A DNA stretch of 64,000 nt, taken from contig CM061133.1 of assembly GCA_030789695.1 (NCBI GenBank), positions 97,359,128 through 97,423,127 on the forward strand. Reading direction: 5' to 3'. Below, one piece after another: positions 23,468 to 62,428 of the stretch (positions are counted from its first letter, which is position 1; the number at the start of each line of letters is the position of its first letter). The DNA comes from Scilla litardierei (lineage: Eukaryota > Streptophyta > Magnoliopsida > Asparagales > Asparagaceae). The notes below the pieces were generated by a model. It ran no database searches. It was not told where the DNA came from and worked only from the letters and a program-made list of their open reading frames with translations. Made by a program: the position numbers and the translations under genes.

Positions 23468-23650
23468 GCAAAACGGGCGCACGCCCGCTGCACAGCGGGC
23501 GCGGCCCGCTGTGTGCAGCGGGCGGGCGCCCGCTGATGCAGCGGGCACGGCCCGCTACGGCAGCGGGCGCCCGCCCGCTGCAGCAGCGGGCGGGCGGCCC
23601 GCCCTTGCTCCCTTGGGCGGGCGCGCCCGCTAAGCCTAGCGGGCGCACCC
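23468..23650. repeat. GC palindrome cluster (GCGGGC/GCCCGC) in LTR
   Basis: At least eight alternating GCGGGC and GCCCGC arms spaced 10-25 bp, such as GCGGGCGCGGCCCGC and CGGGCGGGCGCCCG, in an otherwise AT-rich LTR. It lies about 330 bp upstream of the TATA box. Strong secondary structure is expected. Confidence 0.8.
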
Positions 23651-23977
23651 GCAACATAAGTCGTATTAGGGTTTTTGAAACCCCTAATGACGGCTACGAA
23701 TTTTGAGAAATTGCTAAACTTTGAGCAATTGTTTGAGGGGTCAAACGAAGTCGAAATTCATCGCCGTCAGTTCCTACGCGTTCACCATTCCAAGTTCTTC
23801 TGATTCATAGCTTGTTTGGTGTCTGAAGTTTAGTATGCGATGAGAATTAATTCGTTAAAGTTTGACTTTGTGAAAGGCTAACTTTAAAGTTGAAATTAAG
23901 CCAAATGGCTTAATTGAATTTTTCTCTTCATGGGAATTGTCCCACATTGCTCGCAACGAGAAGTTGAGTGCTCACTC

Positions 23978-23993
23978 CCTATATAAATAGGGG
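23978..23993 (+). promoter_or_regulatory. LTR TATA box
   Basis: CCTATATAAATAGGGG, in the right place for an LTR promoter, with CT-repeat leader sequence downstream (about 24078-24090). Confidence 0.7.
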
Positions 23994-24590
23994 TGCACTC
24001 TCCTCGTTGAAAAACACACCAGTCAACGATCGAGTAGCTCCAGATTTTTAGAGCAAGCTCGATCGGCGACTAAATCTCTCTCTCTCTATTTTCCTATTCT
24101 CTGGAATAGTCCTAGCACGACTACAAAGGGGTTTGGATCTGATCCGGATGTCTAAGACGCAGGTTCTTCTCAAGTGAAACTTTCTACCGCGTGTGATCGG
24201 CTCGGAGGCGAAAGCAGCTCGGGCGGATCGGTGCGAGGGTGCGAGACGGCTCAGGGAGATCGGGTCAACACGGCTCGGCTACGAGGAGCTTCTCAAGACG
24301 GTGCGGTACATCTTGCCTGCTCCAAGGCCAAGATTCCGGGTATGTGGTTAAGCATTTTCTAGTGTAATTTTAATTAGTCGCTTTAGTGTAGATCCTTCTT
24401 GGGGTGGTCAGACCCACTCCAAGTTGGCATAGATCGGGCTAGGTTCTGGCTCCCCAGAGCCTAGCTAAATAGTTTAGCTAGTGTAGAAATTTTGATTTCT
24501 GGTTTTCCGCTGCGCTTTTGTGCCTCCGTGGTCCGTCCGACTTAGGACGGATACGGATCCGAGCTCTGGGGGTCCGCCAAAACCCCAACA

Positions 24591-24837: not shown

Positions 24838-27800
24838 TGTAACGACCAGTTTTGCCGTCTCTATTGTCTGTTTTCATCTAGTGTATTATCTTTCCCGTAT
24901 CCGTAGTCAGACGTTCCGTATCCGTAGTTAGGCGTGACTATCCCCGTGCATGTGCCTGCTTTTTCACGTTAATTATTTCTATTATTATTATTCTATGATG
25001 CCTAGTTAATTTATTATTATTATTATTATTATTGTTATTAATATTATTATTGAGTATCTCTTGTTAAATAATGATAAACTTTCAGAATTTGAATTCGAAT
25101 TTCAAATCTTTTTAGTCAATGAAACTTCCCATTTAAATCCTATTTAAACCTATTATTAAATTGACTTAATTAGCTCTAATTGCCTTGATTAAACCTAATA
25201 AATCCTATAAAACCATTTCAAATCCTTTCCTAAATAAACCATAGACATGTTTCTAACCCTACACCCGGATCCACACTCACGCACACAGCTAGGTACATGA
25301 GTATGAGACTAAACAATAGAGAAAAAGAATATACTTAACTAAACCTAGACCTAGGCTCACATGTTCTCTTCCCTACCCTACAACTTCTTACTGCAAACTA
25401 AGCCTAGAGTTCACGTACAGCTTTTTCTAACACACACACTTTTCAACCTCCTATAACTATAAATATTAAACCTAGCTAGACCTAGGGCTAGTCCCATGCT
25501 GTACGATTTAAACCCCCCTCCCCTCACACAAAAGCTAACCGATATAACATAAACCCTATAGGGACTAAAGACCCCTTCACGTGCCAAACCTAACCCCTAG
25601 ATATCAACATTATATAACCCTAGGCCTTCAACTTCCTTATATTATATTAGACCCTACTACCAAAACACAGCAAGCCTATATGAACCCTAGTTCTTTTTCT
25701 AACCTAGGCAGCCGCCCCCTTGTTTTCATCTCCTCCACACGACAACCAACGCAGCCGCCCAGTTCCTTCATCTCCACGCCATGAACGCGGAGCACGGCCT
25801 CCCTCCCGATCTTTCCTCCTCCTCTCAGCACAGCCGGTGGCCACCTTATCTCCTCCGTTCACCTCCCACGCCGCAACTCCGCCCTCAACTCCGCGCCCGC
25901 GAGCAACCCTCGCCCAGTCCCCCTCCGTGCGAACTCCTCCCTTACGGCCTCCCCCACACGCCAGAGCCCCTCCACCTCTCGCATCGGCCATCTCCTGCTT
26001 CCAACGCCACTCAGGCCGAGCCTCACATCCGCCCAGTTCTCCATCGCCGCAACTCCTCCCATGTCCGAACAACTCGCGAGACAACCCAACAGGCCCGAGC
26101 CCCGACTTCATCTCCTCCACGTGCAACACACGCAAACGCCTTCCCCTCGCCCTGTCGTGCGGCCGTCTTCTCCTCCAGCCATCAACAAACCGCCTGCTCT
26201 TCCACCATCTTCACGCCACAACAACCCATGCCCAGCAACACCGGAGGCCTCCTCCTCGCAGCACACACGACGACCTCTCCTCCGTCCACCCCGCTGGCGT
26301 TCTCCCCGCTCCTCCATCAACGTCTAACGACAGAGGATATAAGCTCAAAGAGGTTGGTTTATATGTTGTCAGTAGCTACTTTAGTTAGGGTTGTACTTTA
26401 GTTAGAGTTATGTTTATTATAACTGTTAAATTAGTTAGTGATAAGTTGTTGATAATTAGCTTATAAATGTAAACAGGATCCTATGGTTAACTATTGGTTT
26501 ACAGTCTTGCTAGTATTGTTAGTGATAGTTTTGGTTTGAAACTGTGTTTCTCCTACCATTGTGTCAGTACTTGTATTGGTTTTTCTAATACTCATTTCAT
26601 CATGGTTAAGGATTGGGTGTTAGGGTATCTTTTTATAATGAACAGCGATTCCTTAAATCATAGGAGAACTACAATTTCTTTTTAGTTATTGAACCGGACT
26701 TCAGAAACAAGAAGTGTTATTTTCTTTCATTACTATTTCCTATAGGTATATAAATGCATGTTAAGATATCACAATGTTTTACTCCCAGCAACTATTTTCC
26801 TATCAAATTAGATTCACAACCTAACCACTAAATTAGGCTTCTGATAATACATATAGGAAACTAGAGTAACAGGTTATTGAAACATGTAATTTTAGTTATT
26901 AGTATTGATATGTTAATTTGTGTAATAAGTTATTTTCAATCAATCTAATATCGGAATCCGATGGCCCAGAAAACGTCGGTGCCTTCCGTACGGACCCGTC
27001 GACAGCAAGAACGTCAAAAACAGGCAAGTATATAATTTGTTATGATTTTTAGAAGTTCGGCACGTTTGCGCCGCCTTCATGTTTTGCTGTGTAACTCAAA
27101 TTTAGATGCGTAATGACGTACAAAACTGACACCATAACGACTAGGACGAAAATTGGGATCCAACGGTATATCATACGATATATCCCCAATTTAAACAACT
27201 AGAGAAAGAAATTGTTTCTGTAGCAAATTGAACGAAAAGGACGAAATCGTCATTATTGGAAATTACGGAACCGGTCGTTCGACCCGCTTCCGCTTTGCAG
27301 AATTGTCACCATAAAACACTAATTTTGATAACAATGAAATTCAGTGAGTCTTGACATGTTTAACAGTTTGGACATCGTGAAATCGTGCGCCTCGAAGGCG
27401 AAATCGTGAATTCGTGATGTCGTGTGAGTCGACTAGGCCGGCTCGTGTTCCGGCAAAACTTTTGGGTGGGGTTAGGGTTGAGCGGCCACTAGGCGTATGA
27501 AAGGTACTCTCCTCAAGAACACCACCCGACGCGGTGGGTTAGTGTCAATCACGGTAAGCCCCCGTGAGAGGAACGACCTTCTCATCACGACCTAAAGGCG
27601 AGAACCCTAGATTAGATGTGAATTCTTGACATGGTCATTGTAACGCTAACTTAGTCATCGCGAATATTGAAATGCTAACAAACTCTGAGAATCTAACTTT
27701 AAACTTGCCATCGACTAGAACTGCATGCTAGGATTGTTTCTTTCTGCTATGTAATTGTTAAATGTTAATTGCTGCAGTCGTTTCCTTTAAATTTAATGAT

Positions 27801-28279
27801 GCTTCTAAATTTCATATACTTGTTATATACTTCGCCTTGGGATGCTAACTCTTTCTTGCAGACCACTAGCTGACATACATTCATGTTTGTGGATGTATGT
27901 CAGGTTCAGAGCTTGAGTACCACCTGACTTGGAGAGCCAGAGTTGTCGAAGACGTCGAGATGTTTTCTGCAGAAGACTAGAGTCTCTTTTCCATCATTGC
28001 TTTGAGTTTTAGTTTAGTTCCTTGTAGTAGGATTAGTGTTTGGTTGTAGTTTCTTTTGGCCATGCTGAGGCCCTGTTGTTTTATTTTCTGTACGAACAAT
28101 TCTGGAAGTGCCCATTTAATTTAATGAAATGCTTTCTGGTTGTTCTGATACGCAAATGCAAGGACCCTTTTCTGTGTTTTTATCACAGACGCTTATTGAA
28201 CTCGAGCTTCACCGCTCCAGTTCAAGCGGGCCGTGTAACGTTCTCGCTTCCGGTGTCTTTTGGGAAGCGGGGCGTTACA
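24838..28279 (+). repeat. LTR 1 of the tandem array
   Basis: 3442 bp. Contains an ATT microsatellite (about 25010-25055), a very C-rich block (about 25700-26330) with incidental long frames, a stem-loop at 27870-27903 and a terminal inverted repeat at 28234-28279. It differs from LTRs 2 and 3 by a 5 bp longer CTCCC run (about 25520) and several single bases. Confidence 0.93.
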
Positions 28280-30958
28280 GGTTTTAGTGGTGGCCCATGC
28301 AGGTCATGCAACTGCCAAGTTCAGAACAATTAGAACACTTTTCATTAGCCAAAAATATCCAGAATAGTTCGTACGTGAAATTATTCGAATATCTTGTCTC
28401 AGCACGATAGGAAACCGACACCCGGATGATAGGAATAGATAGACGCTTGTGCTCGTTAGTTAGACACCCGTGCCATGACTTGGTATTATCATCTTAGGAG
28501 TCAACCTGTCGATTGATCATCCAGCTCTAACCTTATTAAACTTTCGAGTTTCGTTAATCATTCGCTTAGGTTTATCGAATCTAGGGCCCAACCAGACGTA
28601 GCGATCGTCGCCGTGCAAGTCAAGCCTGAGACGTCTGCAATGAGTAGATTACGAAGCGTGGAATATTCCAGACCTAGTGATAAGATCTTGCCCTCGACCC
28701 TCAACGAACCCTCACATCGGCTTCCCTAACACAGTCTAGTTCTTTGACGAACCTTAGTGCTAAACCTTAGTCGACCCAATAATTATTTCCCCCTGATTTT
28801 ATTATTTTATAATCATTACACTTCCATGTTAATGATCGTAGAAAGCCTCCGTAGCGTATTCACAGAGTTACTTCTTAGTCGTCCTTACGCTTCAATCGTC
28901 GAACCTGATTCTTGTCCTCGATTCACATAAACTCTTCATATCCGCCATTTTTTTAACCTTGAACCCCTCCTAAAAAGATATTTTCGATATTTCATTTATT
29001 GAATTCTTCGCTAAGTTTAAAATTCTTTCGAAAAAAAAACTTTTACTAGATTCTCTACACTTCAGTTGACTTGAACACAATCTTGATATGAAACTTTTCT
29101 GACGCCATTTTAATTACTATCTTATAACGATTTCCTGACATTCATCTCTCGCACTTCTATTTCGCATACCCTCGTGTAGCCACTCTATTTTTCTCATGTA
29201 AAGAACTTCCTTTTAAACTTTATTTCTATTTTTGCTAGTTCAAATATCATCTTCATTTCTTGCTAACATACTTTCAACACAGTCACTTCTACATACTTTT
29301 AAAATATATATACCTTACTAAGTTAAATAGAACTCCAAAATCCTGTGTGTCAGTCTTATAATCATTGTCTTCAAATATTTTAAGAAAGAAACAAAAAAAA
29401 ATTCTCTTTACAAACCTATTTTCCATTTGCAAAACAAGCACTGCATCGCTAGGCCCATATTACTCTTCACTCATTATTGACTAATCACATTTTACAATTT
29501 AATTTATACCATATGTTTGCTATTTTACGATGTTATTATTTTCACACACATCCTTATCTTCTTACCTTGGTTCATAAATATTTTATGTCACCCAACCTGC
29601 TGACCTCTTACCCATGTCACATTCGAAACAGTCCATCACAACAATAACTCGTTGCCTCATTCCTGCACCTTGTTTGGTTGTCGCATTAGAGCTTACCTTT
29701 CCTTATGACAGCTTTAGTTTAAGTATAGTGAGACCATTAGCTTGATTATGGTGTTGTGGCGCATGTAAATAGATAGTGACTGTGGACCCGCGTATGCTAA
29801 TCTCTATATACCACCCATGTATGACGTGTGCTTGTGCGTATATATGTCTGTGGTTGGTTATAGGCGTGTATATAAATATATATTGTATGAACAAGTGTGT
29901 TTTATATATAGTAGAATTGTTATAATTACCCCTACGGGATGATGTATGAGCATGTGTATACCCGGAAGTATGTATAGTCGTATGTTTGTGAATACATATA
30001 TGGACGCATGTAATAGTATACTAGCCCTATGTAAATTACCATGGTTGTGTATACCGGTGTGTGTATATTTCTCCTATGTAGATACGAGCTAGGCGTGTAT
30101 TAGTGTAAGTATGTATATGTATGTGAAATGAACGTACGTATGAGTATTTGAAAGTGTGTGATATATATTAGTAAGTATATACCTATGGATGTATATGGTT
30201 TCATTATAATGTATGAATGCCCGAGATGGAATGACCTTAGTGTTTAAGTCCACTCACCCATACGTTGGCCTATTTAAGGGATTCTGAGGACGGATTTGAT
30301 CCTAGGGTGTGTAGATTGCTATGACCCAAGTACTAGGGGTAAAGTTTATATAAATCTGGGTATAGTATAAGGTATTACATGCATGTATATATGTGTACTG
30401 TTATGTATTATAATGTGTATATAGTAGTATGCGGTATGTGAAAGTGATTGTACAATTGAAGTGTTAATTGAATAAGAATGATTGTATTTCTTATTAGTGA
30501 TATGTTTATGTGACATGTAGTATTATATCATTAAAGATTGTGAGTGTATGAGATATATGGTAATATATTGTGTATTAATAATGATGTGAGTGTGCGAGGT
30601 GTTGGCATACTTACACAGCTAGTAAATTGATGTGGTTGTGTAGTAATCATCATTATTCGTCGAGTATAATATTGGTTGGATTATATTGGTAGGATGATGT
30701 TAAGCATGTTGTATAAATACGTAATTGGTAACATGTGTATGTGTATAGTTACTACTAGTAGCATTGGCGTTGATTTGTATTATCGGTGGTAATACTTTTG
30801 GTGTTGATGTTAATATTAGAAATACTATTTGGATATGGCATGATGGTTATTTATCGTGTGTATACATTAGAAGGGAGATACGAGCGTTACCCTGATATTT
30901 TCCCCGTGTCTTAGCCGATAAGATTCCGAGGGCGGAATCGTCTTTAAGGTGGGTAGGA
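28280..30958 (+). other. Internal region 1 of the tandem array
   Basis: 2679 bp with no gag or pol. The sequence after the LTR (GGTTTTAGTGGTGGCCCATG) only weakly resembles a tRNA-Met PBS. The second half is rich in TGTATA/TATGTG runs. At 30922-30939 lies a perfect stem GATTCCG/CGGAATC (loop AGGG), then the purine tract AAGGTGGGTAGGA against the next LTR. A weaker relic of that stem motif is at about 30279-30298. Confidence 0.85.
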
Positions 30959-33900: not shown

Positions 33901-34394
33901 TTTAAATTTAATGATGCTTCTAAATTTCATATACTTGTTATATACTTCACCTTGGGATGCTAACTCTTTCTTGCAGACCACTAGCTGACATACATTCATG
34001 TTTGTGGATGTATGTCAGGTTCAGAGCTTGAGTACCACCTGACTTGGAGAGCCAGAGTTGTCGAAGACGTCGAGATGTTTTCTGCAGAAGACTAGAGTCT
34101 CTTTTCCGTCATTGCTTTGAGTTTTAGTTTAGTTCCTTGTAGTAGGATTAGTGTTTGGTTGTAGTTTCTTTTGGCCATGCTGAGGCCCTGTTGTTTTATT
34201 TTCTGTACGAACAATTCTGGAAGTGCCCATTTAATTTAATGAAATGCTTTCTGGTTGTTCTGATACGCAAATGCAAGGACCCTTTTCTGTGTTTTTATCA
34301 CAGACGCTTATTGAACTCGAGCTTCACCGCTCCAGTTCAAGCGGGCCGTGTAACGTTCTCGCTTCCGGTGTCTTTTGGGAAGCGGGGCGTTACA
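30959..34394 (+). repeat. LTR 2 (middle) of the tandem array
   Basis: 3436 bp. It shares the CTCCC deletion and several single-base states with LTR 3 against LTR 1 through most of its length. Near the 3' end it carries the LTR 1 state where LTR 3 differs (GTGTAACG against TTGTGACG). Stem-loop at 33985-34018. Confidence 0.93.
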
Positions 34395-40000: not shown

Positions 40001-40512
40001 ATTGCTGCAGTCGTTTCCTTTAAATTTAATGATGCTTCTAAATTTCATATACTTGTTATATACTTCGCCTTGGGATGCTAACTCTTTCTTGCAGACCCCT
40101 AGCTGACATACATTCATGTTTGTGGATGTATGTCAGGTTCAGAGCTTGAGTACCACCTGACTTGGAGAGCCAGAGTTGTCGAAGACGTCGAGATGTTTTC
40201 TGCAGAAGACTAGAGTCTCTTTTCCGTCATTGCTTTGAGTTTTAGTTTAGTTCCTTGTAGTAGGATTAGTGTTTGGTTGTAGTTTCTTTTGGCCATGCTG
40301 AGGCCCTGTTGTTTTATTTTCTGTACGAACAATTCTGGAAGTGCCCATTTAATTTAATGAAATGCTTTCTGGTTGTTCTGATACGCAAATGCAAGGACCC
40401 TTTTCTGTGTTTTTATCACAGACGCTTATTGAACTCGAGCTTCACCGCTCCAGTTCAAGCGGGCCTTGTGACGTTCTCGCTTCCGGTGTCTTTTGGGAAG
40501 CGGGGCGTTACA
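37076..40512 (+). repeat. LTR 3 of the tandem array
   Basis: 3437 bp, ending CGTTACA against the CAACC duplication. Stem-loop at 40103-40136. The penultimate repeat arm reads TTGTGACG instead of GTGTAACG, so the terminal stem has one mismatch in this copy. Confidence 0.93.
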
Positions 40513-40517
40513 CAACC

Positions 40518-40728: not shown

Positions 40729-41463
40729 TGTTGAGATATTGAGTCTCACCCCCCCATGTGGTTTTGATGATGAAAAACAATTAGTGCATCTAACATCTTT
40801 TTGATTCTGGAGCTTAAGAAAATCAATTATAGCACTCAAGGGATTAGATGATGAGAAAACAAGGTCATGAACCAAATTGGAGCAATACATGAGATTGAAG
40901 AATGAAGATACATCACATTGGACTTCATTGTAATATTTTTATTTGATGTAGTTTTATTTATTTTGTCTTAACATGTTAAAGCCTTGTTAGAAGCTCACAC
41001 ACACATAGGATCACTTTAAAATGATTTAAAAATATTTTAAAATGTTTTAAAAGCTTTTTAACTCAATATCATATGTGTCAGACCTCGTAGCCGACTAGTC
41101 CTAACATAGGAGTTGACTACATTTCTGGGTGTTTCTCTGCACCCAAAAGTAGTTGACTACAGTGGTCTGGATAGTCGACTACTCTTAACATTGTAGTCGA
41201 CTACTGTACTATTCACAGCTCAGGAAATACAGTTCCATATTTTTCGCAAAGCTGTCGAAAGAGTCGTTGGAAGGGTGTTTCTGTGATGAATTTACAACGG
41301 GGTTTTCACCCCTATTAAGCTGCATTTCTGGGGCTTTTATGCACTAATTAATGAGCAAAAATTGAGGTTTAGACGCATTTATTAAGTTCTTTCAAAAGCC
41401 CTAAAAATATCTTTTGGCCTATGTTTTGATATTTTCTTAAATCGCTTTGGCCAAATTTCTGAA
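40729..41463 (+). repeat. Probable LTR fragment with TAGTCGACTA motifs
   Basis: Starts TGTTGAGATATTGAG, resembling the minus-strand start of the solo LTR at 51179-52992 (TGTTGAGTATTGG, then TTTTGATGATGA). A cluster of GTCGAC-type motifs lies at 41086-41213, with perfect TAGTCGACTA at 41172-41181 and GTAGTCGACTAC at 41193-41204. It is cut by the CACTA-like sequence at 41464; no 3' end is seen. Confidence 0.5.
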
Positions 41464-41527
41464 CACTACAAAAAACATGACAATTTTTAGCGGTTATTTT
41501 AGCAGTAGTTCATAAAACCGTCACAAC
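41464..41527 (+). mobile_element. CACTA-type transposon left end (continues 55742-56290)
   Basis: Opens CACTACAAAAAACATGACA, the terminus typical of En/Spm (CACTA) transposons, followed by the first AGCGGT unit of a subterminal repeat. It is interrupted after ACAAC by the copia element at 41528. No transposase was seen. Confidence 0.6.
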
Positions 41528-43353: not shown

Positions 43354-43355
43354 AG

Positions 43356-43370
43356 TGGTATCTGAGTAGG
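43356..43370 (+). promoter_or_regulatory. Primer-binding site, mutated tRNA-Met type
   Basis: TGGTATCTGAGTAGG. It differs from the element 1 site at two positions, in keeping with an older insertion. Confidence 0.82.
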
Positions 43371-43394
43371 TTAGAGAATCTAGACTAGAGAACC

Positions 43395-44093: not shown

Positions 44094-45839
44094 AAATATG
44101 TCACGCCCCGCTTCCCTAAAATGGAGGCGAGACGTGAAGAGGTCCGCACGAGAGTGGAGCTGTGAAGCCCCAAACCCGATAAGCGTCAATAAAACATAAG
44201 CAGGTCCCTGTAACCACAATGGAATAACAATAATAACACAAGGAGAGACTGAAATAAAATCTCATATCTCATAAATTGTCCAACATGAAAATAAGTCCAA
44301 CATCCAGAAAAGCCACCAGGCTAAAAGGAAGAGTCTAAAGGCCCAGAACAAGGCCAACAAAAGTAACGACATAACAAAGTATAGGTGCCACGCACTGACA
44401 ACAAAACAGCAGTCTAAACAAAAGGAAAACACAACGAAGACACTAGGACTGGTCCCCAGTGTCCACGTACTCCCCGTCAAACACAAGCTCGGGCTCGGCG
44501 TCAGCAAACACCTCGTCCTCAACAAGGTACTCAGGCTCAGGATCTAACATGTGTCACCCAAAAGAGTAAAGGGGCACATGTCAGCAAGTCTAAAAGACTT
44601 GGGCAAGGAAACTGAAAGTAAGGCAACTAGCAACCTAGCAGTTTTAGTATGCATGACTTGGCAGTTATAACATGAGTGCACAAACAAGACATGGCAAGAC
44701 AATTTGTACAAGAGAACAATTATCGGGACAAGACAAGAGTAGCCAAGCTACTAACAATCTCAATCAATTCACTATTCACGTTTCACTGTTGTTTGTAGAT
44801 GTTTACGCCTTACAGCTGAATGGTTTCACATTCACGCTGATTGGCCGCTTAACAACTACCCCAAACCCAGAGTTTACGCCTTACCACTGCAGTTGCTGAT
44901 CGGGCAGACTCCCAGTTGATTGGCCGCTTAACTCTTACCCCCAATACCCACATGTAATCGAGCCAGGGTCCCCGCACATGAGCTCAGTAAATGAGCCGGG
45001 GTTGCCCCGCACAGGAGCTCGCATTCTATATCACGATTCATAAACAATTGGCGTAGGGGTGCACCTAGCCGGAAACAAGCAATTCGGGCATTGGCTATCA
45101 ACCAACACATGGCCCGCTTCTGGAACACGAGCCAGGAACACAAGTGTAACAGCCTGTTTCTATCGTACCTTCTTCGTGCACGTGCTTTTGATCGTGCACG
45201 TGTTTATTTTAGACTTTATTTGTTTTTGAACGTTTTTGTGTGATATGTCGTCGTGATCGTCTCTGGAAGTATTAGATAGTGGAATAACTTTGTAACAACA
45301 TATCTCGAGTCGTTCTTCAGCGACGCTATCTTAATTGACGTGACGTCGCGACTTTCTGTTTTGATGCGAGACGTTACGAATTTTAGTTTCGTCTCTCTAC
45401 ATCGAAATTTAGATCCGTCTTCTCCACTATCTTTCTTTAGTCACCTAGAACACCCCATAATTATTTTATAATTGTTGGACTTAATTTGACCTATTTTCTA
45501 TTTTTTTGAAAGCTTTAAATAATTTTAAAACCTATTTTTATAAAAGTTTTAATTACAATAAAATTACTATATTATAATAACGTATTAAAGAATTTTCTGG
45601 CAAAGTTTCAGAATTTTTGGCCGCACCCATCTTGCGTGAGGGAGAGGAGAGCAATTTTAAATTATATTAATTATTTTAATTATTTTAATTACGATTTTCT
45701 TAACCCAAAACCCTAACCCTAACTCTTTTATATTTAAACAAACCCTAGGCTAGGTTATTTTCGCAGCCACACAAACCCTAGCCGTCAAAAACCCCTCCCG
45801 ACGTTCGTCGCAACATTGCGACGATCGCAACGTGCACGA

Positions 45840-46260
45840 CCGACGGCCACCCCCGCAATTCCCAGCGCACGACCGGAGAAAGCCCCCGCATTGCCGCTTG
45901 CAGCGCCCGCTGCATCGCCTCCCCCGCAGTCGCCCGCTCCGACCGAGAGCACCGCTCGGTCAGACCGAGCGCCCGCTCCGCACGGCCGCTTGGCCCGCTC
46001 CGCTGCACCCCGCTAGCGCTTGACCGAAGCAGCTCCCCGCTCCGACCGAGAGGCCGCCCCGCACCTGCTCTCCGCACCGCCTCGTTGCAAGTTGCAACGT
46101 TGCAACTTGGCCCGCCCGCTGTGACCGATGGGATCTGTCGGTCAGACCGACGGTTCTCCTCGCACCCCCGCTGCAATCGACCCCGCTGCGCTGCATCAGC
46201 GTCCGACCGAGAGCTCCACTCGGTCTGACCGAGGGAACTCTCCGCACCGACGGTGTCCGA
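45840..46260. repeat. CGGTC/GACCG palindrome cluster in the inner solo LTR
   Basis: Perfect or near-perfect units include GCTCGGTCAGACCGAGC (45954-45970), GTCGGTCAGACCGAC (46137-46151) and CTCGGTCTGACCGAG (46219-46233), plus single half-sites GACCGAGAG and a GTTGCAAC/GTTGCAAC pair near 46084-46108. Here the cluster lies downstream of the TATA-like box rather than upstream. Confidence 0.78.
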
Positions 46261-47140
46261 CCGACCAAACTTCGTCGCAAGTTGGTTTCTCCCACACCAA
46301 CTCCTGTGGTGGGCCCCCCAAGTGCTCCTGAGGTGTTGTGGGCCCCCTTGGACCCCTAGCACTGCTGTGGGCCCCACTTGGACGTGCCACTTCGCGGATT
46401 TGCCGTCGACGACGTTGCGACACGTCGTAGGCCTTCGTCGCAAGTTCGAACCTTTGGAGAGACGTGCGAGGACCAGATTTGAAGCTGAGGAGTTCTCCGA
46501 TCAGACCCGACATCCAATCTACAGCAAACTCCGGTTCAGGTTGGTTCCCCGAAACTCGTAGAAACCCCCACAATAGCTGACTGAACCCTAAACTAAAAAC
46601 CGTCAACTTGAACTAAATTTACTTTCCAGCTCCTGTAAAACGTTGTACGAACATAGAAAATCGACGAACGGACTAATTTGACTGTGCACATAGGATAGAT
46701 CGTCGATTAGGCTGATACATCAAAAAGTGACTTTTGACGAATAGGATAGTCCCGAAAACCTAGAAACGAACCCTAATAGGATTTGATGAATTTGAGACCT
46801 GACATCGTCGCCGTGGCGATATTTCAGACGGACTTCTGCGGACGAGACGCTTGGACGAGACGCTTCGAGAGGACGACGCACTCGCCGTTTCAGGCAAGTG
46901 TACCCACTTGCGTTTTTGACCGTGTTTTGGTCTTAGTTTGCTAGAACTGTTAGACTGTGAATGTATAGAACCGGACGTGAAATGATAGCGTCTGGGACGA
47001 CTCCTGACGGCTCAGACTTGACGACGAAGTCTGAGCCTGACAACAACAACTTTTTCATGCTGTAGGGCTATCATGTGTGTGCGTGTGTGTGGACACCCTA
47101 GAATAACCCTTCCTGTCGTGTCACGTCACGTCCCGTCTTG

Positions 47141-47370
47141 CACAGCCCGCTGGGCAATAGGGCACTCGCCGAGTGATCCCTTGTACTGATTCACAGCCTG
47201 CGGGCAATAGGGCACTCTCCAAGTTGAGAGGGTGATCCCTTGTACTGATACACAGCCCGAGGGCAATAGGGCACTCTCCAAGTGGAGAGAGTGATCCCTT
47301 GTACTGATTCTCAGCCTGCGGGCAATAGGGCACTCGCCAAGCTAGAGCGAGTGATCCCTTGTACTGGTGT
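47141..47370. repeat. Four-copy 51-59 bp tandem repeat with hairpin cores
   Basis: Units start at about 47141, 47192, 47251 and 47310 (CACAGCC-GGGCAATAGGGCACTC...GTGATCCCTTGTACTG). Each has a stem around CACTC. Unit 3 pairs CACTCTC with GAGAGTG; unit 4 pairs CACTCGC with GCGAGTG, a compensated base-pair change. Confidence 0.85.
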
Positions 47371-48935
47371 CATGTCTTGTCTTGTCTTGGGGTTTGGGGT
47401 TGGGTTGAGCGTGCGCACGGCAAGAGGGTCTGATCCCCCTCGAACCGTAAGGCGTGAACCCTTTCGTGTCTCACTTGTCTTGTCCTGCCTTGTTTCCGTC
47501 ACGTCACGTCTTGTCTTGACACCTGTAGGCTAGTCCCGTAGTTGGTAGCACACACTACGACTACTACTTGTCCCGTTTTACTTTCCTGATGCGTTACTTC
47601 CTGTCGTGTTACTCTGTTATAACCACAGCATGTTAATCAACCAGTAAACTGTTGTGTAAAAGAACCTCAGCATGCTAATCAACCAGTAAACCGTTGTTTA
47701 AAGTTCGGTGCACTTGCAGTAAAGTCTAACCCTTCTTGTAGACTTTACCTGACGTACAGTTCCTTTTTCTTGGGTGTTGTACGTCAGGTATTTAGCCAGA
47801 GTTCGTGGACGAGACAGTCTCACTGGAGTACGAGGAGCCGAGGACGTCGACCCAGAGCACGTGCCTGACGAGGACCAGACCTAGCGGTCATTGTTTTAGT
47901 CGTCACTTTCAGAGGTTGCTACTTTTCGGTTTGTCTTTAAACCTTTGTTGCCATGCTTAGGCTTCTTTTAGACTTTGTACTTGCTGGATAACATATCTCT
48001 AATTTAATGAATGCAATATCTTTTTCCGTACTTTTGTTGTTTCGAACTATAAAAATGCAAGAACCTGAAATTCTTTTAAAATGGTATCTCTACAGACGCT
48101 TATTGGGTCCGAGCTTCTAAAGCTCTGGCCTAAGCGGGCCTCGTCACGTTTCGCTTCCGTCCATTTTGGGAAGCGGGGCGTGACAACAAGCATTGTAGCA
48201 AAGCTATGCATTCACAGAAATACTTAAAGGATGCAATGACATGACAATTTATTTGCGTACTGTTAATGGAAAGTAAACATGACATGGTAATTGTGCAACA
48301 TGCTAAATATCGAAACTAGCTTCGTTGTCAAGCTAGTTCCCCAATTTTGCGCCTAGGCGAGTATCATTTCGTCGCCTAGTCTCTTTTACGCCTACAACAA
48401 GCAAAATGGCCTAAAACATGGCCCTAACCCTAAGTGGTAAGTTTCACTTGTCTAGCACCGGGGATGACGATCACGAAGGTTCGTCTCGCGGATGCTAATC
48501 TACGGGGGAAAATCGCTGTTATGAGGAAACAATCATCAAACAACATGAAATTTCATTAGGGTTTCATAAAAATACAAATAGGTTATGAAAACATTGAGAG
48601 ATCGATTTCTTACCGAGAGGAGGCGGAAGAAACACTCCGGAGAACCCTAGGACCAGATCTGGAAACAAATGGAGAAGTTTGGAGAACTAGGGTTTTTGGG
48701 GGATTTTGGGGATTTGATGAGATTTTGGGGAAGATGAGAGGTAGAATGAGTTGATGGAGGGTTTAGATGATTGATCTAGGGCTTGGGATGAAGGAATAAG
48801 GCTTGGTGGAAGATGGGGGCTCAATGGGGGAGAAACTAGGGTTTTGGGTCGAATGGAGGAAGAAGAAAACGTTTGGGAGGGGTATAAATAGGATGGGCTG
48901 GCGGCTGCCCAGAAATTAGGGTTTTAACACAGATT

Positions 48936-49360
48936 AGTCGGTCAAAGAGCAACCACTGACCGACTAGTTTGGCAACTAGTCGGTCGGTCGACCAACGCAG
49001 ACCGACTAAGTGTAAACAGTAACTCCTGTACAGAATAGGATTTAGAATTAGTCGGTCCATGAACAAATACTGACCGACTAGTTTAACATCTAGTCGGTCG
49101 ATGAACGTTCTTAGACCGACTAAGAGTGAACAGTATTGATACTAAAATTAAGTTGAAGAGTTAATCGGTTAAAGAAGCATTGCCGACCGACTAGTTTGCA
49201 ACCTAGTCGGTCAACCAACGTTCTTAGACCGACTAACGATAAACAGTAACTCCTGAATAATTTAGAAAGCCAACTAGTCGGTCCAAGAAGGATTGCCGAC
49301 CGACTGGATCGTCATCTAGTCGGTCGGTGGCCCTTCTTATACCGGCTAACGTGCACCAAA
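48936..49360. repeat. Four-copy 113 bp tandem repeat built of AGTCGGTC/GACCGACT arms
   Basis: Units begin near 48936, 49050, 49163 and 49276. Each holds arms in the order AGTCGGTC, GACCGACTAG, CTAGTCGGTC, GACCGACTA with 6-14 bp spacers, so several alternative hairpins can form. On the element's minus strand the array sits just upstream of its TATA-like box. Confidence 0.85.
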
Positions 49361-49623
49361 AGTTCCGATACGGAGCGCGGAGCTCCGGGATCGATTCCTA
49401 AGACTCCTATTCTTGATCTAAAAGTAAGATACGATCGTTATGAAGTCCGTCACGAATGACATACTTCGAAATCGACAATCCTAAGGAAGAAACGAGAAAA
49501 TACGACGAATCGATCGAAAATGAAAGCTACGGAGACGAAAACCACACATGAGGAGAAAATCCACCAAAACATATATTATATTATAATAAATCCAGATACA
49601 TGAAAACCAGTCGTTACAAAATA

Positions 49624-51173: not shown

Positions 51174-51405
51174 CATCTTGTAAGGATCGTCTTACCCTTG
51201 CAATACTAACAACAACACACTAGAGGGAGGGGGTGAATAGTGTAATGACACAAATTACGTATTTAAAAATTAAACTTGCAAATGCGGAATTATAAATGCA
51301 AGAGGAATTTAAACACCACAACAATCCAAACGTAAACACAAGATATTACCCTTGTTCCCCAAACTTGGGTACATCCAGCCACACCAATATCCACTATAAT
51401 TCTCA

Positions 51406-51671
51406 CACAGAGAAGTGAATACAATCTCACACAGAGATACCTCGCACAGAGGATTTGGATCTCCACACAGAGAAATCCTTACTCTCACACAGAGAGACTT
51501 CACACAGAGGATTTAGGATCCCACAAAGAGATATCCTTGCTTTCACACAGAAAGACTTATGCTCTCTCACAGAGAGACTCAAACTCTCACATAGAGAGAT
51601 CTCAACCAACCCTCACACAGAAGGTTATACTCTCACACAGAGAGTAACTAGCTTTCACACAGAAAGCTAGG
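51406..51671. repeat. Minisatellite of covarying hairpins with CACACAG loops
   Basis: About 13 units of 15-30 bp, each a short stem around TCACACAGA. Stems vary in concert: CTCTC/GAGAG, ATCTC/GAGAT, CTTTC/GAAAG, ACTCTC/GAGAGT, AGCTTTC/GAAAGCT, and AACCCT with AAGGTT. The loop is nearly constant. Confidence 0.85.
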
Positions 51672-52030
51672 GTTTCAAAGAAATAACAAAGTAAAACAAA
51701 TACTCTTACCTATGCCTTGAGATGAACTTACTCATAAATGAATGCAAGGCATGGAAGAGGATCTCCAAGTGATGAGATTATCTTGAAAGCACTTGGATGA
51801 TTTCCCTTGAGCTTGACTTCAATGCATGAAGGAGTGAATGAGCTCTAAGAGGGAAATGAGAGAGTTTGAGAGTGGCTTAATTAAACTCTAAAGATTTTCA
51901 ATAGAATCAAGAAGTTCTTATGAACACAGCCCTCTCATATATATAGAAACCCTATAGGAACTCTCAAAAGCAAAGAAAACAGCCAAAAACAAAACGCTGC
52001 AACGGCTAGATTTTGGGCTGAAACGTCACC

Positions 52031-52560
52031 GACAGTCGACTAATGAACAAATGACAGTCAACTGTCCAACGGATAGATAATAACCGACGGCTATAATCTG
52101 AGCCTCGACAGTCGACTGAAGAAGTCGATACAGTCGACTGAAAACAGGACATGCGCCTGTAAAACCTTCAGCAGGCGACTGCTGCAGGGGATGGAATAAA
52201 ACAGAGAGATGCACTCGTACTCTCAGTATGCATACAGGCGACTGATGAACAAAATACAGTCGACTGTAAAATAGACAGGCGACTGTTTATCCTTCATCAG
52301 TCGACTGCTACATTGAATGGAAATAAACAGAGAGAAGCAATTTTCGCACTTACGCCTTCCAGACAACTGTTGATCATTTCAAAGGCGACTGTAAATATAC
52401 AGACGACTATAAATACTTCATCAATCGACTGATGCAAAAAGCTCAAGTAGAGTCAATAATAAGTTGACTTGAGCAGTGCACCACAGTCGACTGTAAAAGG
52501 CTCGACAGGTGACTGGAATCACCCAGTCGACTGTAAAACCTTCAGCAGGCGACTGTATGA
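52031..52560. repeat. CAGTCGACTG/CAGGCGACTG motif array in the solo LTR
   Basis: About 18 dispersed copies of a 10-mer. Many are the perfect palindrome CAGTCGACTG; the rest are one-base variants such as CAGGCGACTG and CAGTCAACTG, often in pairs about 20-30 bp apart. On the minus strand the array lies directly upstream of the TATA box. Confidence 0.85.
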
Positions 52561-52997
52561 GAGCCAGAGACTCCAAATGAGTCTTTGGTCAAGATGAGCC
52601 TATTGGGTTGTATTCTATGATAATCCAAAGGCTCACTAAGATGGTTAAATGCATATGCATGAATGGATAAACCAACTAACAATGCATTACATTAATCCTA
52701 GACTCAAAAAGATAGAAAGCAATAAATGACATTACATGGATTACAATGCTTTCCTTAGAGTCTATGGCTTCAATCAGGATGCCTTGAAGCTCCCCATCAT
52801 CTCCAAGCTTTGGCACCCCTTGAGTCCAAGCTTTGGTCATTCTCCACTTAATGTCCATCCTTACACCAAGTGTTTAGTCTCCAAAAATGATATTCTTGAA
52901 ATGTTAACTATGAGACTAAAACAACAGAGTCATTAGCAATAACATAATGTTGTGATCATCATCAAAATGGTATGAAACACCAATACTCAACACATCT

Positions 52998-53887: not shown

Positions 53888-53900
53888 AAAGGGGGAGATT
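53888..53900 (+). promoter_or_regulatory. Polypurine tract, copia element 2
   Basis: AAAAGGGGGAGAT, identical to that of element 1, directly before TGTTGGATAC. Confidence 0.9.
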
Positions 53901-55736: not shown

Positions 55737-55741
55737 ACAAC

Positions 55742-56290
55742 TATTTCTGCTTTAGCAGTTTCAACCCGCTACTATCAAAGAAATATTTTGTAGTGCTTCG
55801 AAACCGTTGAAATATTAAAAAATAAAAAAAGAAGCATTTTGAAGAACACGTGTGAAGGCGGGGAAAATTATTTTTGGTTTTAGTGGGTTCGAAATATTTT
55901 GTAGCGGTTCAAAACCGGTACAATATAAAAACCATTAAAAAAGAAGCGGCAGGAAGAACCCACGAGAAGGCGGGGAAAATCATTTTTGGTTGTAGCAGTT
56001 TCGAACCGCTAGAAAAGCTATAAACTTTCCATTGTAGCGGTTCGAAATGTAATTTGTAACCGCCATAAAAAGACATTATTATATTAATTTTTCGAAATAA
56101 AAAACTGCTAGAAACATAATTTATAATGGTTCGGAACCGCTACAAAACATTGCATGTGGTTTGTTTTCAGCGGTTCGAAACTGCTAGAAACGAAGTTTTT
56201 GTCGCCTGATTTTGTTGCGGTTTCTTAAACCACTTGAAATGTTATTAGAGGCGGTTTCGAACCCTCAGAAATCCATTCGCAACCCACTTC
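55742..56290 (+). repeat. CACTA-like subterminal repeats (TAGCGGTTCGAAACCGCTA type)
   Basis: About ten AGCGGTT/AACCGCT units in both orientations, many arranged as TAGCGGTTCGAAACCGC, consistent with the subterminal region of a CACTA transposon whose left tip is at 41464. No matching right terminus (GTAGTG with a 3 bp duplication) was found, so the element is truncated or decayed. Confidence 0.6.
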
Positions 56291-56389
56291 TACCATTCGC
56301 CTTTCTTGTTGTATGATCCCCCAAAAAGCTTTAATTTCTTCATCTTTGGAGATCATCACAATTGTTGCAGAAACCGAATAGAGACATGA

Positions 56390-57194: not shown

Positions 57195-57205
57195 ATCCCC
57201 CACTT

Positions 57206-58400: not shown

Positions 58401-58741
58401 AGCCAGTTACTATCTAAAAATAAAGATCTATCATGTACCAATATTTTTGTGTATGAAATTGAAATTTATGGTTTCCATTGGTGTAAATCCAATCACCTCA
58501 ATTTGAGATGAAAATCAATTCCCCATTGGTAGCAACTAGTTATCCATTAAGCGGAGGAAATAGTACTATAAGAAGTAAAAAGGTTATGTTTCTATTTTTC
58601 TTTATTAAGATTTCCATATAGATATGCAGCCACAACATCATGCATATCTAATCCTTCCTTTGCTTTTAAGCTTATCAAGAATCAAAAGGTGATCACATCA
58701 ATTATCGTTAAGTATATTTCTTTATAGTATATACCCATTCT
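58401..58741. other. Non-coding stretch before the pol relic
   Basis: AT-rich, with no readable gene. Probably the decayed reverse transcriptase/RNase H part of the minus-strand copia element. Confidence 0.35.
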
Positions 58742-60681
58742 TTGGAAAACCCCATGTGCTACAAGCCTTGCTTTGTAGCGTGCGATCTCATTGTTTTCAT
58801 TTCTTTTCTGACAAATACCCATTTATGTCGCACAGGTTTAACACCATTTGGTGTCTGTACAATTTGTCCTAAAACTTTGCATTTCTTAAGCGAGTCCAGC
58901 TCTTCTTCTATTGCCTCATTCTACTTTGACCAATCATTTCTTCGTTTGCATTCAGCAACAGAATGTAGATCATTATCATCATCGCTTTCAGAGACGTGAA
59001 TGGCAATATGAAACGCAAAGTCATCATCGACGATTATACTCTTTCTGTCCAACACCTCCCAAGTATGTACATAGTTTAATGATATTTCAGTTTCTCCCAG
59101 ATTTTCCTCTACAATGGATTCCGAGTGGGGTGATGGTATGGACATGAACTCATTTTCTATGGTGGTATTATCACAAGGTCTCTAGGAGTTTTTCTTTTTC
59201 TTGGAGTTTTGTCGTTGGAGCCTAGTGGTTGCCTCTTTTCACTTGAGGAACATCCACTTATACTGATGGTGGATTGTATCTATTATCGGGGGTGTCAATC
59301 CTAGCTGGAGTATTTGCAGCAATGATGTGTGAGTTGACAATCTTCTGGTTGTCAGTAAATGAATCAGGTAACTCATGAACAGTGTTCTGAATGTGGAGGA
59401 TTTTTCGGATCTCATCTTTATATTGTTTGGTTACTAGATCGTAGTGGGTCAATGATTTTGTGTCCCACGATATTATTTGTGTAGCTCCAGATTTTGCAGT
59501 ATCCAGACCTAATTTGGGGAATGTTGTCTCATCAAATTCACAGTCTTCAAGACATGCCTTGAATTCGTCTCCCGTTTGGGGTTCTAGATTTCTTATTATT
59601 GAGGGTGAATCAAAACCCTACATAGATTCTTAGACAATGTTGAGGATCCATTTTTTTCATATGTGGTGGTGCTATGGGGATATAGACTGCACAACTAAAA
59701 ATTCTCAAGTGAGAGATGTTCTGTGGTATTCCATATGCAAGTTGCATTGGAGAAAGACTCTGACCTCCAGAGTGTCTGATTTTTATTAAAGAAGTATCAT
59801 GCAGTATTGCATGTCCCCATGCAACCACCAGTAATTGTGATTTCATTAGTAATGGACGTGCAATCCATTAGAGACTTTTTATCAATGACTCTGCCAACCT
59901 GTTTTGGGTATGAACAGGTGGCACATTAGGTTTAATTTCTATCCCAGTTGCTAGGCAATATTCTTGAAATGACCGGAGGTAAATTCCCATGCATTATTGA
60001 GATGGATATTCTTTATTTGATTTTCTGGAAAATGCACCCGCAATTTTATTATTTGTGCCAATAGCTTTGGAAAATCTAGATTACAGGTAGATGAAAACAC
60101 ACATACGAATATTTGGAGGATGCATCAATCAGTACCATAAATTACCGAAAAGGCCCACTTTGGAGGTGGATTGGTCCACATATATCTACTTGTATTCTTT
60201 CAAGGAAGCTTGGAGATTCTTTGTCGACTTTTAACATAGATGGGCTTGTAATTAGTTTTTCCTTGAAATAAAGGATGCAATGGAATTATCCCTTTTGAAG
60301 AATTTTCTTGTTCTTCAAATCATGCCTGTAGGATTGGGCTAAGATGCGGTGCATCATAACCGATACAGGATGGCCAAGTCTATCATGCCAAAGTAGAAAC
60401 TTGGATGATATCGGGCAATTCAGTTGCTCCATCAAATTTGCTTCCTCTATCGGAATCTTTGTATGATATAGGGCTGATAAAAGGTTCTTAAAACGCTCAA
60501 GTATGGATTTAACTCCTTTTTCTTTAGACGTTACATACAAATGTTCTTTTTTGTTTATATTTGCAGTTTCTAAGTGAAACCCTTTTAGATGGATGTGCTT
60601 GAAATGTAATAAGTTTCCTTTTGAATTCGGAGAGAATAATGCATCGTTTATTTTTATTTGTGTACCATTTGGGAGCAACAG
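58742..60681 (-). pseudogene. Copia pol pseudogene: gag-pre-integrase, integrase, RT start
   Basis: Minus-strand reading, in order. 60678-60286 is the gag-pre-integrase region (LPNGTQIKINDALFSPNSKGNLL, then WHDRLGHP, the zinc-binding entry to integrase). 60285-59850 is integrase core in broken frames (SFLERIQVDICGPIHPP readable near 60200). 59846-59610 is post-core integrase (AWGHAILHDTSLI, NISHLRIFSCAVYIPIAPP). 59609-59000 is a decayed linker, and 58990-58742 the RT beginning (EELDSLKKCKVLG, QTPNGVKPVRHKWVF). Stops and frameshifts throughout. The catalytic reverse transcriptase (YxDD) and RNase H are absent. Gag and the 5' LTR were removed at 60681, where the Athila-like element inserted or recombined. 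This is the only pol-like sequence of any length in the window. Confidence 0.85.
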
Positions 60682-60686
60682 TGTTA

Positions 60687-62422
60687 TGATCGCTCCTTAT
60701 TTTACACCCTTTTTCTGCATATTTTCATGCCGTTTTGATCGCCCATATTGCATTTTTCACGATTATTCGACGATATCACGTTGCTTTTCACTGTTTCTTG
60801 TTTTTATCGTATTTCAGGAGATATGGAGCGATTTGAAGAAAAAAAGAGATCAAAGGATTTTCACGCACATCGGAGTGTCGTCCACAGCTTATTTGAGGAG
60901 TTATCAGTGCTAGAGGATGAGCGGAAGAGGAAGGAATTCGATAGAATCGACAAGGAGGCAAGGAGGAGAAGAAAAGAGGACAGATATGGCTCACTCGGGC
61001 GAGTAGATGTTTCACTCGGCCGAGTGAAGAGCTGTACTCGACCGAGTGAAACGGATACGCACTACTGAATTTTAGATGTTTACTCGGCCGAGCAAGAAAG
61101 TCTAATCGGCCGAGTGAGGAAGCTCACTCGCCCGAGTACTACAGGGATTTTCTCCTGAGAAGCGGCCAAGTTACTGGAAATTCTGAGAAGACCCACTCGG
61201 CCGAGCAAGATTGCTCACTCGGCCGAGTGAAGAAGCCTACTCGGCCGAGTCAGTCAGAGCGATAGACCCCCAAAACCTCCAGACTCTTTGTTTTTTATTG
61301 GGTCTGTCACTCAGCCGAGTGACATGGGTCACTCGGCCGAGTGACGCATTCTAACTACTACGTAGATTGCGATTTCTGGTCGCAGGGGCAATTTTGTCAG
61401 GATTTTTTGGACGAATTTGGCTTGTATTTAAACCTAGTTTTATCCCAAGTTTTAGGAGAGACTTCTATTATTTTTTGACGGTTATTCCTTTTGTAAATCT
61501 CAGCTGGAGATCATAGGCGAAAATTTTGGTTTGTTCTTTCTTGCTAAAACTCCTATTTTTATGAATTGTCTCTTCTCTACAATGAATTGTGCTATGATCC
61601 TATTCTTTATTTCTGAGATTTTCATGATGATTTGTGAGTAGTTTCGTCGTTCTAGGGCATGGGGATGAACCATATGGACCCGATCTTTTGAATTGTGATG
61701 AATGAATAGAATTGTTGCTAGGATTGAAGAAAGGTTAGATTTTGATTGATTTATTGCAAGTAGCTAGGAATTTCCATCGATTGGGATTTGCAAGAGATTG
61801 GATCCCAATTGATGTGAAGGCCTAGACATTTGACTTAGGTTTATAATTGAGATTCTCTAGATTTGGTTTGCAAGAGATTGGACCAAAGCTAGGATTTTTA
61901 TTATAAATCTATACTAATATTCGTTTGCAAGAGATTGGATGAATACGAATTATCATAAACTAGATCGTAGCTCGAGTTTGCACGAGAGTGGGCTCGAGTT
62001 GCGATTGGATGATGATCTCGATCTTCACGCTAGTGGCTTAGGTTAGGGTTTGCACGAGAGTGTGCCCTAATCTAGGTTGCTATAGACCGGTAATAGCGCG
62101 AGAGTGTGAGCTTGGTTCTACATTAAGTTGCGACTAGTTCACCTACATTCAAGCTTTGCAACATTGATATATGTTCCACAAGGATGAGTGACGGCCCGTA
62201 GTGGGGATTTCCTATCCCTAGATGCTTTATTATATTGATATCTACTTGCTATTAAACGATTGTGACACTATCATCAAAACTATTCTTATTCCATCAATAG
62301 CTAGGTGATCAAAGTAGGATACTGTCAATTGTCCTCTCTGTGTTCGATACCCGCTCGCCACTACGCCGTGTGCTTGCGGTAAAACTATAATCGTTTTCCA
62401 GGTGTATATTCGGGCGCGATCA
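60687..62422 (+). repeat. 5' LTR of an Athila-like gypsy element
   Basis: 1736 bp bounded by a perfect 7-bp inverted terminus, TGATCGC...GCGATCA, followed after two bases by the PBS. It contains a palindrome array at 61005-61350, a TATA-like GTATTTAAAC at 61424-61433, and a leader region with repeated GCAAGAGATTGGA/GCACGAGAGTG phrases (about 61780-62110). The likely target site is TGTTA (60682-60686); the other end is beyond the window. Confidence 0.85.
61005..61350. repeat. CACTCGGCCGAGTGA palindrome array
   Basis: About 12 copies of ACTCGGCCGAGT, several with perfect flanks (TCACTCGGCCGAGTGA), others one base off (GACC, GCCC, AGCC cores). They come in groups of two or three spaced about 25 bp, the groups about 100 bp apart. 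The array lies just upstream of the TATA-like box. Confidence 0.85.
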
Positions 62423-62428
62423 AGTTTT

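Follow-up and report, generated by a model that had tools for sequence, protein, structure and literature searches.

The closest described counterparts of the arrays presented here are found in Sireviruses. Passages of Bousios et al. 2010 (PMC2829016) describe palindromic RM (repeated motif) boxes in the long terminal repeats (LTRs) of 13 Sireviruses, placed upstream of the TATA box with one word per element, and call them Sirevirus-specific and absent from classic copia elements. We analysed a single 64-kb stretch of Scilla litardierei DNA (GenBank assembly GCA_030789695.1, contig CM061133.1, positions 97,359,128 to 97,423,127; hereafter the window), a nest of plant-type retroelements as judged by self-comparison and inspection of ends, in which six LTRs, most of them present as one copy, carry clusters of palindromic words. 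New relative to those passages are the occurrence of this architecture in copia, gypsy-like and Athila-type LTRs, a shared 22-bp spacing, and words that are more conserved than the spacers between them. The original prediction of these arrays, made from the sequence alone, had supposed the class to be without a named description, which the RM boxes contradict.

The likeness to RM boxes, as the same passages describe them, extends to an element-private palindromic word in many copies, a location in the upper LTR half ahead of the TATA box, and perhaps richness in CpG (PMC2829016). The word of the rice element Osr8, CGGTCAGACCG, is that of the array at 45840 (array 3), and the Vitis word CGGTCGACCG has a GTCGAC core also present in arrays 2 and 5. 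At least eight copies of one palindromic word, the number taken here as a mark of RM boxes, occur in array 5 (17–18 sites) and array 6 (11); arrays 1 and 4 have 17 and 16 alternating half-words rather than whole palindromes, and arrays 2 and 3 fall short with five sites and three whole words. The four strong arrays (1, 4, 5 and 6) also have the RM-box placement in the upper LTR, ahead of a TATA-like box; array 3 does not, and for array 2 no box was found. A CGG-CCG core is found in the words of arrays 1, 3, 4 and 6 and is absent from TAGTCGACTA and CAGTCGACTG, as it is from the Tnd-1 word in those passages. By its signal and position, the array at 52 kb (array 5) can be classed as an ordinary RM-box member, and the array of the 41 kb fragment (array 2) is probably another. 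However, strong arrays are present here beyond Sireviruses, in a copia LTR that lacks the Sirevirus signal, a solo LTR of gypsy-like type and an LTR of Athila type, and array 1 starts 1.3 kb into its LTR, as against 200–400 bp in the passages of PMC2829016. In a term search of the main text of that paper, '22 bp' did not occur, and its single passages with 'spacing' and 'helical' concern other matters.

A 2016 study also dealt with palindrome arrays in the cis-region of LTRs for which strong structure is predicted, as related in parts of PMC5311732 and PMC10760457; here such arrays are found in other lineages as well. The discussion of PMC10760457 remarks that the cis-regions of diverse elements frequently consist of arrayed repeats, which are sometimes palindromic. 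In einkorn, a 162-bp LTR motif is common to a gypsy and a copia family, so such modules may cross superfamilies (excerpt of PMC11302176). The BI and BII boxes of Tnt1, which we liken by description only, likewise lie in an LTR promoter, and BII is said to bind defence-induced factors (excerpt of PMC3316501); symmetry of box I is mentioned in PMC2829016. In the literature covered, which leaves out most subscription papers, we found no account of arrays of this kind, either at a 22-bp spacing or, in the present form, outside Sireviruses.

Palindromic arrays and their position in the LTR

A word-free scan, counting inverted 7-mer pairs per 400 bp with shuffled controls for the 60 best scan windows only, revealed four very strong arrays at 23.4, 48.9, 52.1 and 61.0 kb (arrays 1, 4, 5 and 6). 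These contain 149, 154, 84 and 174 pairs against shuffle means of 10.7, 5.7, 5.5 and 5.7, or 10 to 30 times the mean, and outrank all other scan windows. The arrays at 41.1 and 45.9 kb (arrays 2 and 3) are weak (27 pairs against 8.6 in scan window 40901, and 42 against 8.4 in 45901), so that of the six LTRs predicted to carry palindrome arrays four do so strongly. The runners-up were the subterminal region of a CACTA-like transposon near 55.8 kb (62 against 19.8), a tandem repeat near 6.4 kb (57 against 9.9), and the AT-rich portion of the 14114 LTR and its partner (46 against 16.9 and 49 against 18.0). Scan windows centred on the strong arrays have an observed/expected CpG ratio of 0.76–1.41 and a GC content of 0.43–0.63.

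Exact counting recovered the predicted words in all six intervals. Array 1 comprises 17 exact half-words between 23468 and 23650 (GCGGGC nine times, GCCCGC eight), for which Tandem Repeats Finder (TRF) gave periods of 22, 23 and 45. In array 4, AGTCGGTC and GACCGACT each occur seven times, and its 16 half-words alternate in orientation. Array 5 has six exact copies of CAGTCGACTG, 17 with at most two mismatches, and 18 when one site placed by register is counted; array 6 has four exact copies of ACTCGGCCGAGT and 11 with at most one mismatch. The weak arrays hold two exact copies of TAGTCGACTA and five with at most two mismatches (array 2), and two exact copies of CGGTCAGACCG plus one CGGTCTGACCG (array 3). 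The register-placed sites, 49164 and 49340 in array 4 and 52150 in array 5, all match poorly. The half-word of array 4 contains ACCGAC, which we take, as a lead only, to be the core of the plant dehydration-responsive/C-repeat (DRE/CRT) element.

When LTRs were split at the TATA-like box, the excess of inverted words over shuffles was confined to the unique 3' region (U3) of the four strong-array LTRs. The z scores in U3 were 30.4 for the copia LTR, 36.4 for LTR B, 18.1 for the 52 kb Sirevirus LTR and 40.2 for the Athila-type LTR, and those of the repeat and unique 5' regions (R/U5) were 1.4, 1.0, 2.3 and 2.4. The proposed U3 enrichment over shuffled controls holds within the window for these arrays. 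Six internal stretches scored –0.5 to 2.6. LTR A, the carrier of array 3, shows the reverse (U3 2.9, R/U5 8.8), the R/U5 of the 14114 Sirevirus scored 6.5, and the 41 kb fragment, taken whole, scored 3.6, as did the whole 343 LTR. Pattern search bore out the predicted layout, with all four strong arrays upstream of a TATA-like box on the element strand, the 45840 array downstream of one, and no box found in the 41 kb fragment (40729..41466); most of these LTRs hold further matches to the pattern, and the most box-like one was chosen.

Spacing of the sites

Centre-to-centre gaps between neighbouring sites of arrays 2, 4, 5 and 6 measured exactly 22 bp in 25 of 46 cases, 18–21 bp in 10 and 40–70 bp in 11. 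Arrays 1 and 3 stood outside this count, and one-mismatch sites at 48982 and 49444 (array 4) and three-mismatch sites at 41202 (array 2), 61160 and 62360 (array 6) were dropped before it, whereas the three register-placed sites were included. The gaps of array 2 are 22, 40, 22 and 22 bp, and the triplets of array 6 run 22-22, once 21-22, and fit a lattice of about 22.5 bp. Despite their different words, array 4 in a gypsy-like LTR and array 5 in a Sirevirus have a common quartet layout, with steps of 22-20-22 bp (once 21-20-22) and 22-18/19-22 bp respectively. A lattice test gave P = 0.011 for array 2, and for each of arrays 4, 5 and 6 none of 5000 random placements reached the observed value.

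The same distance emerged from word-free 5-mer spectra over direct offsets of 6–120. Offset 22 was the top direct offset in arrays 2, 3, 5 and 6, with 11, 19, 25 and 38 pairs (means 0.32, 2.74, 1.59 and 1.63), offset 103 being a close second in array 3 with 18 pairs. In array 1, offsets 45 and 23 came first and 22 fourth. Array 4 gave direct offsets of 113/114, its tandem unit, and 42, and inverted offsets of 23, 19, 21 and 25 around 22. Among the 40 scan windows richest in offset-22 repeats, arrays 6, 1, 5, 3 and 2 took the lead together with a CTCTGTGTGAGAG repeat from the R/U5 of the 52 kb LTR, and windows near 18.1 and 12.9 kb came last; array 4 is missing from this list because its neighbouring half-words are inverted. 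The R/U5 repeat, at 51301-51850, consists of stretches in which CTCTGTGTGAGAG-type repeats recur with periods of 22 and 58 bp, and forms a second offset-22 region in that Sirevirus LTR.

Conservation of words and spacers

Alignment of tandem units, using four in each of arrays 4 and 5 and three of the four groups in array 6, revealed word identities of 0.931, 0.838 and 0.917 in arrays 4, 5 and 6, and spacer identities of 0.546, 0.473 and 0.456. No rotated word mask reached the observed identity (0/113, 0/125 and 0/112). Within the words of arrays 2, 5 and 6, 27 of 29 substitutions break the symmetry; both symmetric ones fall in the register-placed site 52150. Taken together, the arrays preserve word sequence and neighbour distance, but neither exact self-pairing nor the sequence of the spacers. 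CpG decay was considered as the main cause of word variants and rejected, CpG transitions making up only 6 of the 29 substitutions.

These identities bear on the main rival explanation of the spacing, namely that the arrays are a mutational by-product in which short palindromic seeds grow through slippage or template switching, by steps of about 21–22 bp, and have no function. Tandem repeats of 21–22 bp without strong palindromes do occur at 13052, 13730, 24895, 41015, 41728 and 51538; once the six arrays are masked, offset 21 belongs to the leading two over the remainder of the window. Three of four comparison LTRs (343, 24838 and 41528; not 14114) likewise have 21 within the leading three of their 5-mer offsets. 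Moreover, one Sirevirus has a single 21-bp unit more in one of its LTRs than in the other (spacings 12372 and 12393), indicating that array copy number changes by whole units. However, pure duplication should keep spacers as alike as words, and spacers are far less alike; the inverted-word excess is also restricted to U3 in four lineages. We therefore regard a purely mutational origin as unlikely. In that same Sirevirus, the LTR stretches 41728-41780 and 54100-54165 hold an AT-rich 21-bp repeat with the quasi-palindrome AATCAATTGGTGATT, upstream of a TATA-like CTACTTAAAC.

Predicted RNA folding

Most of the arrays are predicted to fold strongly as RNA. Whole arrays 4, 5 and 6 reached z scores of –11.7, –10.5 and –10.4 against shuffles, 150 nt of array 1 –10.0, and array 2 –5.4. 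A 146-nt piece of array 3 was not structured beyond shuffles (0.3), and four comparison stretches showed no strong fold (–1.2 to 1.0). Shuffling the spacers alone weakened the fold, clearly in arrays 1, 2, 4 and 5 (z scores of –3.3 to –3.7) and less so in array 6 (–1.4), in our reading partly because word-flanking bases extend the symmetry. Spacer complementarity was tried as proof of selection on the RNA and found unconvincing, with p values of 0.0145 to 0.60 over eight quartets.

Such folding raises the alternative that self-complementary U3 in 3'-LTR transcripts forms hairpins that are diced to small RNAs and feed or decoy silencing, the structure being selected or tolerated. The folds far below shuffles in arrays 4–6 and array 1, and the further effect of spacers in arrays 1, 2, 4 and 5, agree with this, and the palindrome-rich LTR region is a small-RNA hotspot in maize Sireviruses (parts of PMC5311732 and PMC10760457). 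Against it, word variants are mostly uncompensated, spacer-to-spacer complementarity is weak, the folded piece of array 3 is unstructured, and hairpins do not need a fixed 22-bp distance with free spacer sequence. Selection for or tolerance of hairpin RNA thus seems an improbable explanation of the arrays. The self-complementary RNA suggested by the original prediction is physically likely given the strong predicted folds, and a small-RNA hairpin route as in maize Sireviruses is possible, but both may be a mere consequence of the words.

Lineages of the carriers

The six LTR families were originally taken to be mutually unrelated. LTR A and LTR B have homologous 3' ends (75% over 93 bp), with the LTR A end homologous to those of LTRs B and C, and the start of the 41 kb fragment resembles that of the 52 kb Sirevirus LTR (local score 86, against at most 74 in 300 shuffles). 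As judged from these likenesses, the arrays belong to four lineages: an Angela/Tork-like copia, Sirevirus (two arrays), a gypsy-like TGTAACG...CGTGACA group (two) and an Athila-type gypsy. The recurrence of the architecture across copia and gypsy-type LTRs stands, together with its U3 location.

Common descent of the arrays was considered and rejected, since BLAST among the LTRs (12 pieces, LTR B as two; E ≤ 0.01) joined no two of the four strong-array LTRs. Its only links were A/B/C at the 3' ends, 14114/41528, and the copia starts of 22164/57488; the likeness between the 41 and 52 kb LTRs was found by local alignment only. The polyC-rich Sirevirus signal, allowing one mismatch, occurs solely at 16017, 43319, 51227 and 55705. 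It is absent from the copia LTR of array 1, LTR A, LTR B and the Athila-type LTR, so that among the six carriers only the 52 kb LTR has it; the 41 kb fragment has lost the 3' end where it would lie.

Retroelements and neighbouring repeats

Features of the window are listed in Table 1. We take the copia element of array 1 to be Angela/Tork-like. The zinc-knuckle (zf-CCHC) match in its gag piece is under the Pfam cut-off, and a relative of this piece with a PF14223 copia gag has 53% identity across 79% of the piece. The array 6 carrier is presumably of Athila type, going by its primer-binding sequence; its LTR ends were judged by eye, its second LTR is not within the window, and its gag matches PF03732 above the cut-off (62867-63193, E 1.2e-15), with pol outside the window. 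The initiator-tRNA-like primer sites of the two Sireviruses (14114; 41528/53900) have 0 and 2 mismatches.

Table 1. Retroelement features, palindromic arrays and TATA-like boxes in the 64-kb window
Feature	Position	Strand	Remarks
Gypsy-like LTR pair	343-2205 / 4491-6353	minus	gag match just under Pfam cut-off
Sirevirus LTR	14114-16053		polyC-rich signal; initiator-tRNA-like primer site after 5' LTR
Internal gag piece, copia element of array 1	20430-20921		zinc knuckle
Copia 3' LTR (carrier of array 1)	22164..24590	+	purine-rich AAGTGGGAGA, then TGTAGGAAG...CCCCAACA
Array 1	23474..23646	+	GCGGGC/GCCCGC half-words, alternating orientation, period about 22-23 bp
TATA-like box, copia LTR	23979..23987	+
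Triple-LTR element	24838-40512		CAACC at both ends
Truncated Sirevirus-like LTR (carrier of array 2)	40729..41466	+	likeness in first 120 nt; cut by CACTA-like end at 41467
Array 2	41088..41203	+	TAGTCGACTA, 5 sites
Sirevirus LTR pair	41528-43353 and 53900-55733		polyC-rich signal; initiator-tRNA-like primer site after 5' LTR
LTR B, solo (carrier of array 4)	44099..49618	-	TGTAACGACTGG...CGTGACA; target-site duplication (TSD) AAATA; split by LTR A and its TSD (45140-48190)
LTR A, solo (carrier of array 3)	45145..48185	+	TGTAACAG...CGTGACA; TSD ACAAG
Array 3	45838..46263	+	GACCG/CGGTC half-words in GC-rich R/U5; CGGTCNGACCG three times
TATA-like box, LTR B	48883..48890	-
Array 4	48935..49348	-	TAGTCGGTC/GACCGACTA half-words in quartets, repeating every ~113 bp
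Sirevirus solo LTR (carrier of array 5)	51179..52992	-	TSD CATCT (+ strand); polyC-rich signal 51227-51238
TATA-like box, Sirevirus LTR	51938..51946	-
Array 5	52033..52555	-	CAGTCGACTG; one pair and quartets every ~125 bp
Copia LTR start	57488
Athila-type gypsy 5' LTR (carrier of array 6)	60687..62425	+	TGATCGC...GCGATCA, then TTTTTGGCGCAGTTGCCGGGGA primer-binding region
Array 6	60993..61342	+	ACTCGGCCGAGT, 11 sites grouped at 22-bp steps (one 21)
TATA-like box, Athila-type LTR	61425..61432	+

Two of the carriers are nested, solo LTR A lying inside solo LTR B, which lies inside a Sirevirus gag region (44099-49618). Downstream of array 3, LTR A contains a 59-bp tandem repeat (47171-47366; 3.3 copies, 89% matches). 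The element at 24838-40512 has three 3.4-kb LTRs in series (LTR-internal-LTR-internal-LTR), more than 99% identical; each internal part wholly contains one reading frame of at least 100 aa, and close to where each LTR begins there is a 21-bp doublet. At 41467-41526 and 55738-56300 lie the ends of a DNA transposon split by a Sirevirus insertion, presumably CACTA-like by its CACTAC terminus; the many AGCGGTT/AACCGCT words of its subterminal region make it a DNA-transposon parallel to the palindromic arrays. A GC-rich tandem repeat of 47/93/142-bp units (36-342 and 6354-6717) is split by the 343-6353 element, with TSD GGGAG.

Within the window the carriers are solo, truncated or joined only to gag pieces, and no pol domains were seen, the Pfam scan covering 10 of 69 stop-to-stop frames of at least 100 aa. 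Two protein searches found four and one relatives, without lineage names. Two scans of viral contigs for relatives gave 19 and 6 candidate stretches, none of them confirmed, and two other scans were without matches.

Discussion

On balance, we lean towards reading the arrays as U3 enhancer-type clusters of sites for dimeric DNA-binding proteins, which would act cooperatively at about 22-bp spacing upstream of the TATA box. The palindromic words would be recognised by sequence-specific dimers, perhaps host factors that differ between families. With sites spaced by about two turns of the helix, and most often by exactly 22 bp, neighbouring dimers would lie almost on one side of the DNA, bind cooperatively and act on the LTR promoter from upstream. 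The private words, which change fast between related families, could turn over as elements switch factors or escape word-specific silencing. A spacer sequence that is free while the neighbour distance is kept suits a protein ruler, and together with the uncompensated word changes this favours dimeric proteins over conserved RNA hairpins. The enrichment specific to U3 in LTRs of four lineages also speaks for this reading, as does the agreement in position and logic with the RM boxes of Sireviruses. Among the roles offered originally, that of dimeric transcription-factor sites is thus better supported by the distance and conservation patterns, the binding of a protein being what these patterns suggest.

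Several observations weigh against the enhancer-cluster reading. A strict 10.5-bp phase across whole arrays holds in arrays 2 and 5 (R 0.90 and 0.61) and fails in arrays 1, 4 and 6 (R 0.04, 0.22 and 0.29), a period of about 22.5 bp suiting arrays 4 and 6 better; the spacing claim is accordingly limited to the distance between neighbours. In array 1 no single period stands out strongly (best R 0.42), and gaps inside one array are not independent, owing to tandem duplication. Other LTRs of the window have 21-bp repeats without strong palindromes, and three LTRs with a TATA-like box (14114, 24838 and 41528) show no U3 inverted-word excess (z 1.7, –0.8 and –0.6). Array 3 lies downstream of the TATA-like box of LTR A (45729, plus strand). 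Furthermore, the best rotated masks come near the observed word identities (0.926, 0.810 and 0.887 against 0.931, 0.838 and 0.917), and the contrast between words and spacers is overstated, since words were picked as recurrent strings. Palindromy, spacing and U3 position are independent of that choice.

The fast turnover of private words also recalls the VANDAL elements, whose VANC targets are short family-private motifs in noncoding tandem repeats that change fast and diverge between relatives (parts of PMC5735166 and PMC10398659). By analogy, the arrays might be sites at which an element-encoded or fast-evolving factor removes silencing, which is what VANC proteins do at the VANDAL repeats. 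VANDALs differ in being DNA transposons with an encoded binding protein (excerpt of PMC5735166), and a term search found no occurrence of 'palindrome' in the main text of either paper. No candidate protein appeared in the ten Pfam-scanned reading frames, no dedicated search having been made, and the carriers' own coding regions are absent, disrupted or beyond the ends of the window. We give such an anti-silencing role little credence.

If the arrays are enhancer-type clusters, the superfamilies may even have converged on one promoter grammar, a 22-bp ruler for dimer sites in which the word is free to change, although we hold this further step to be doubtful. Under such a grammar, an element could evade silencing directed at a given word, or change to another host factor, and would not have to build its enhancer anew. 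Should the ruler hold across plant LTRs, the 2010 description of one copia genus would become a general, searchable promoter grammar. It would separate a distance constraint, set by protein, from a pairing constraint, set by RNA, and would offer a direct test of how elements keep their promoters active while changing the sequences by which silencing can recognise them.

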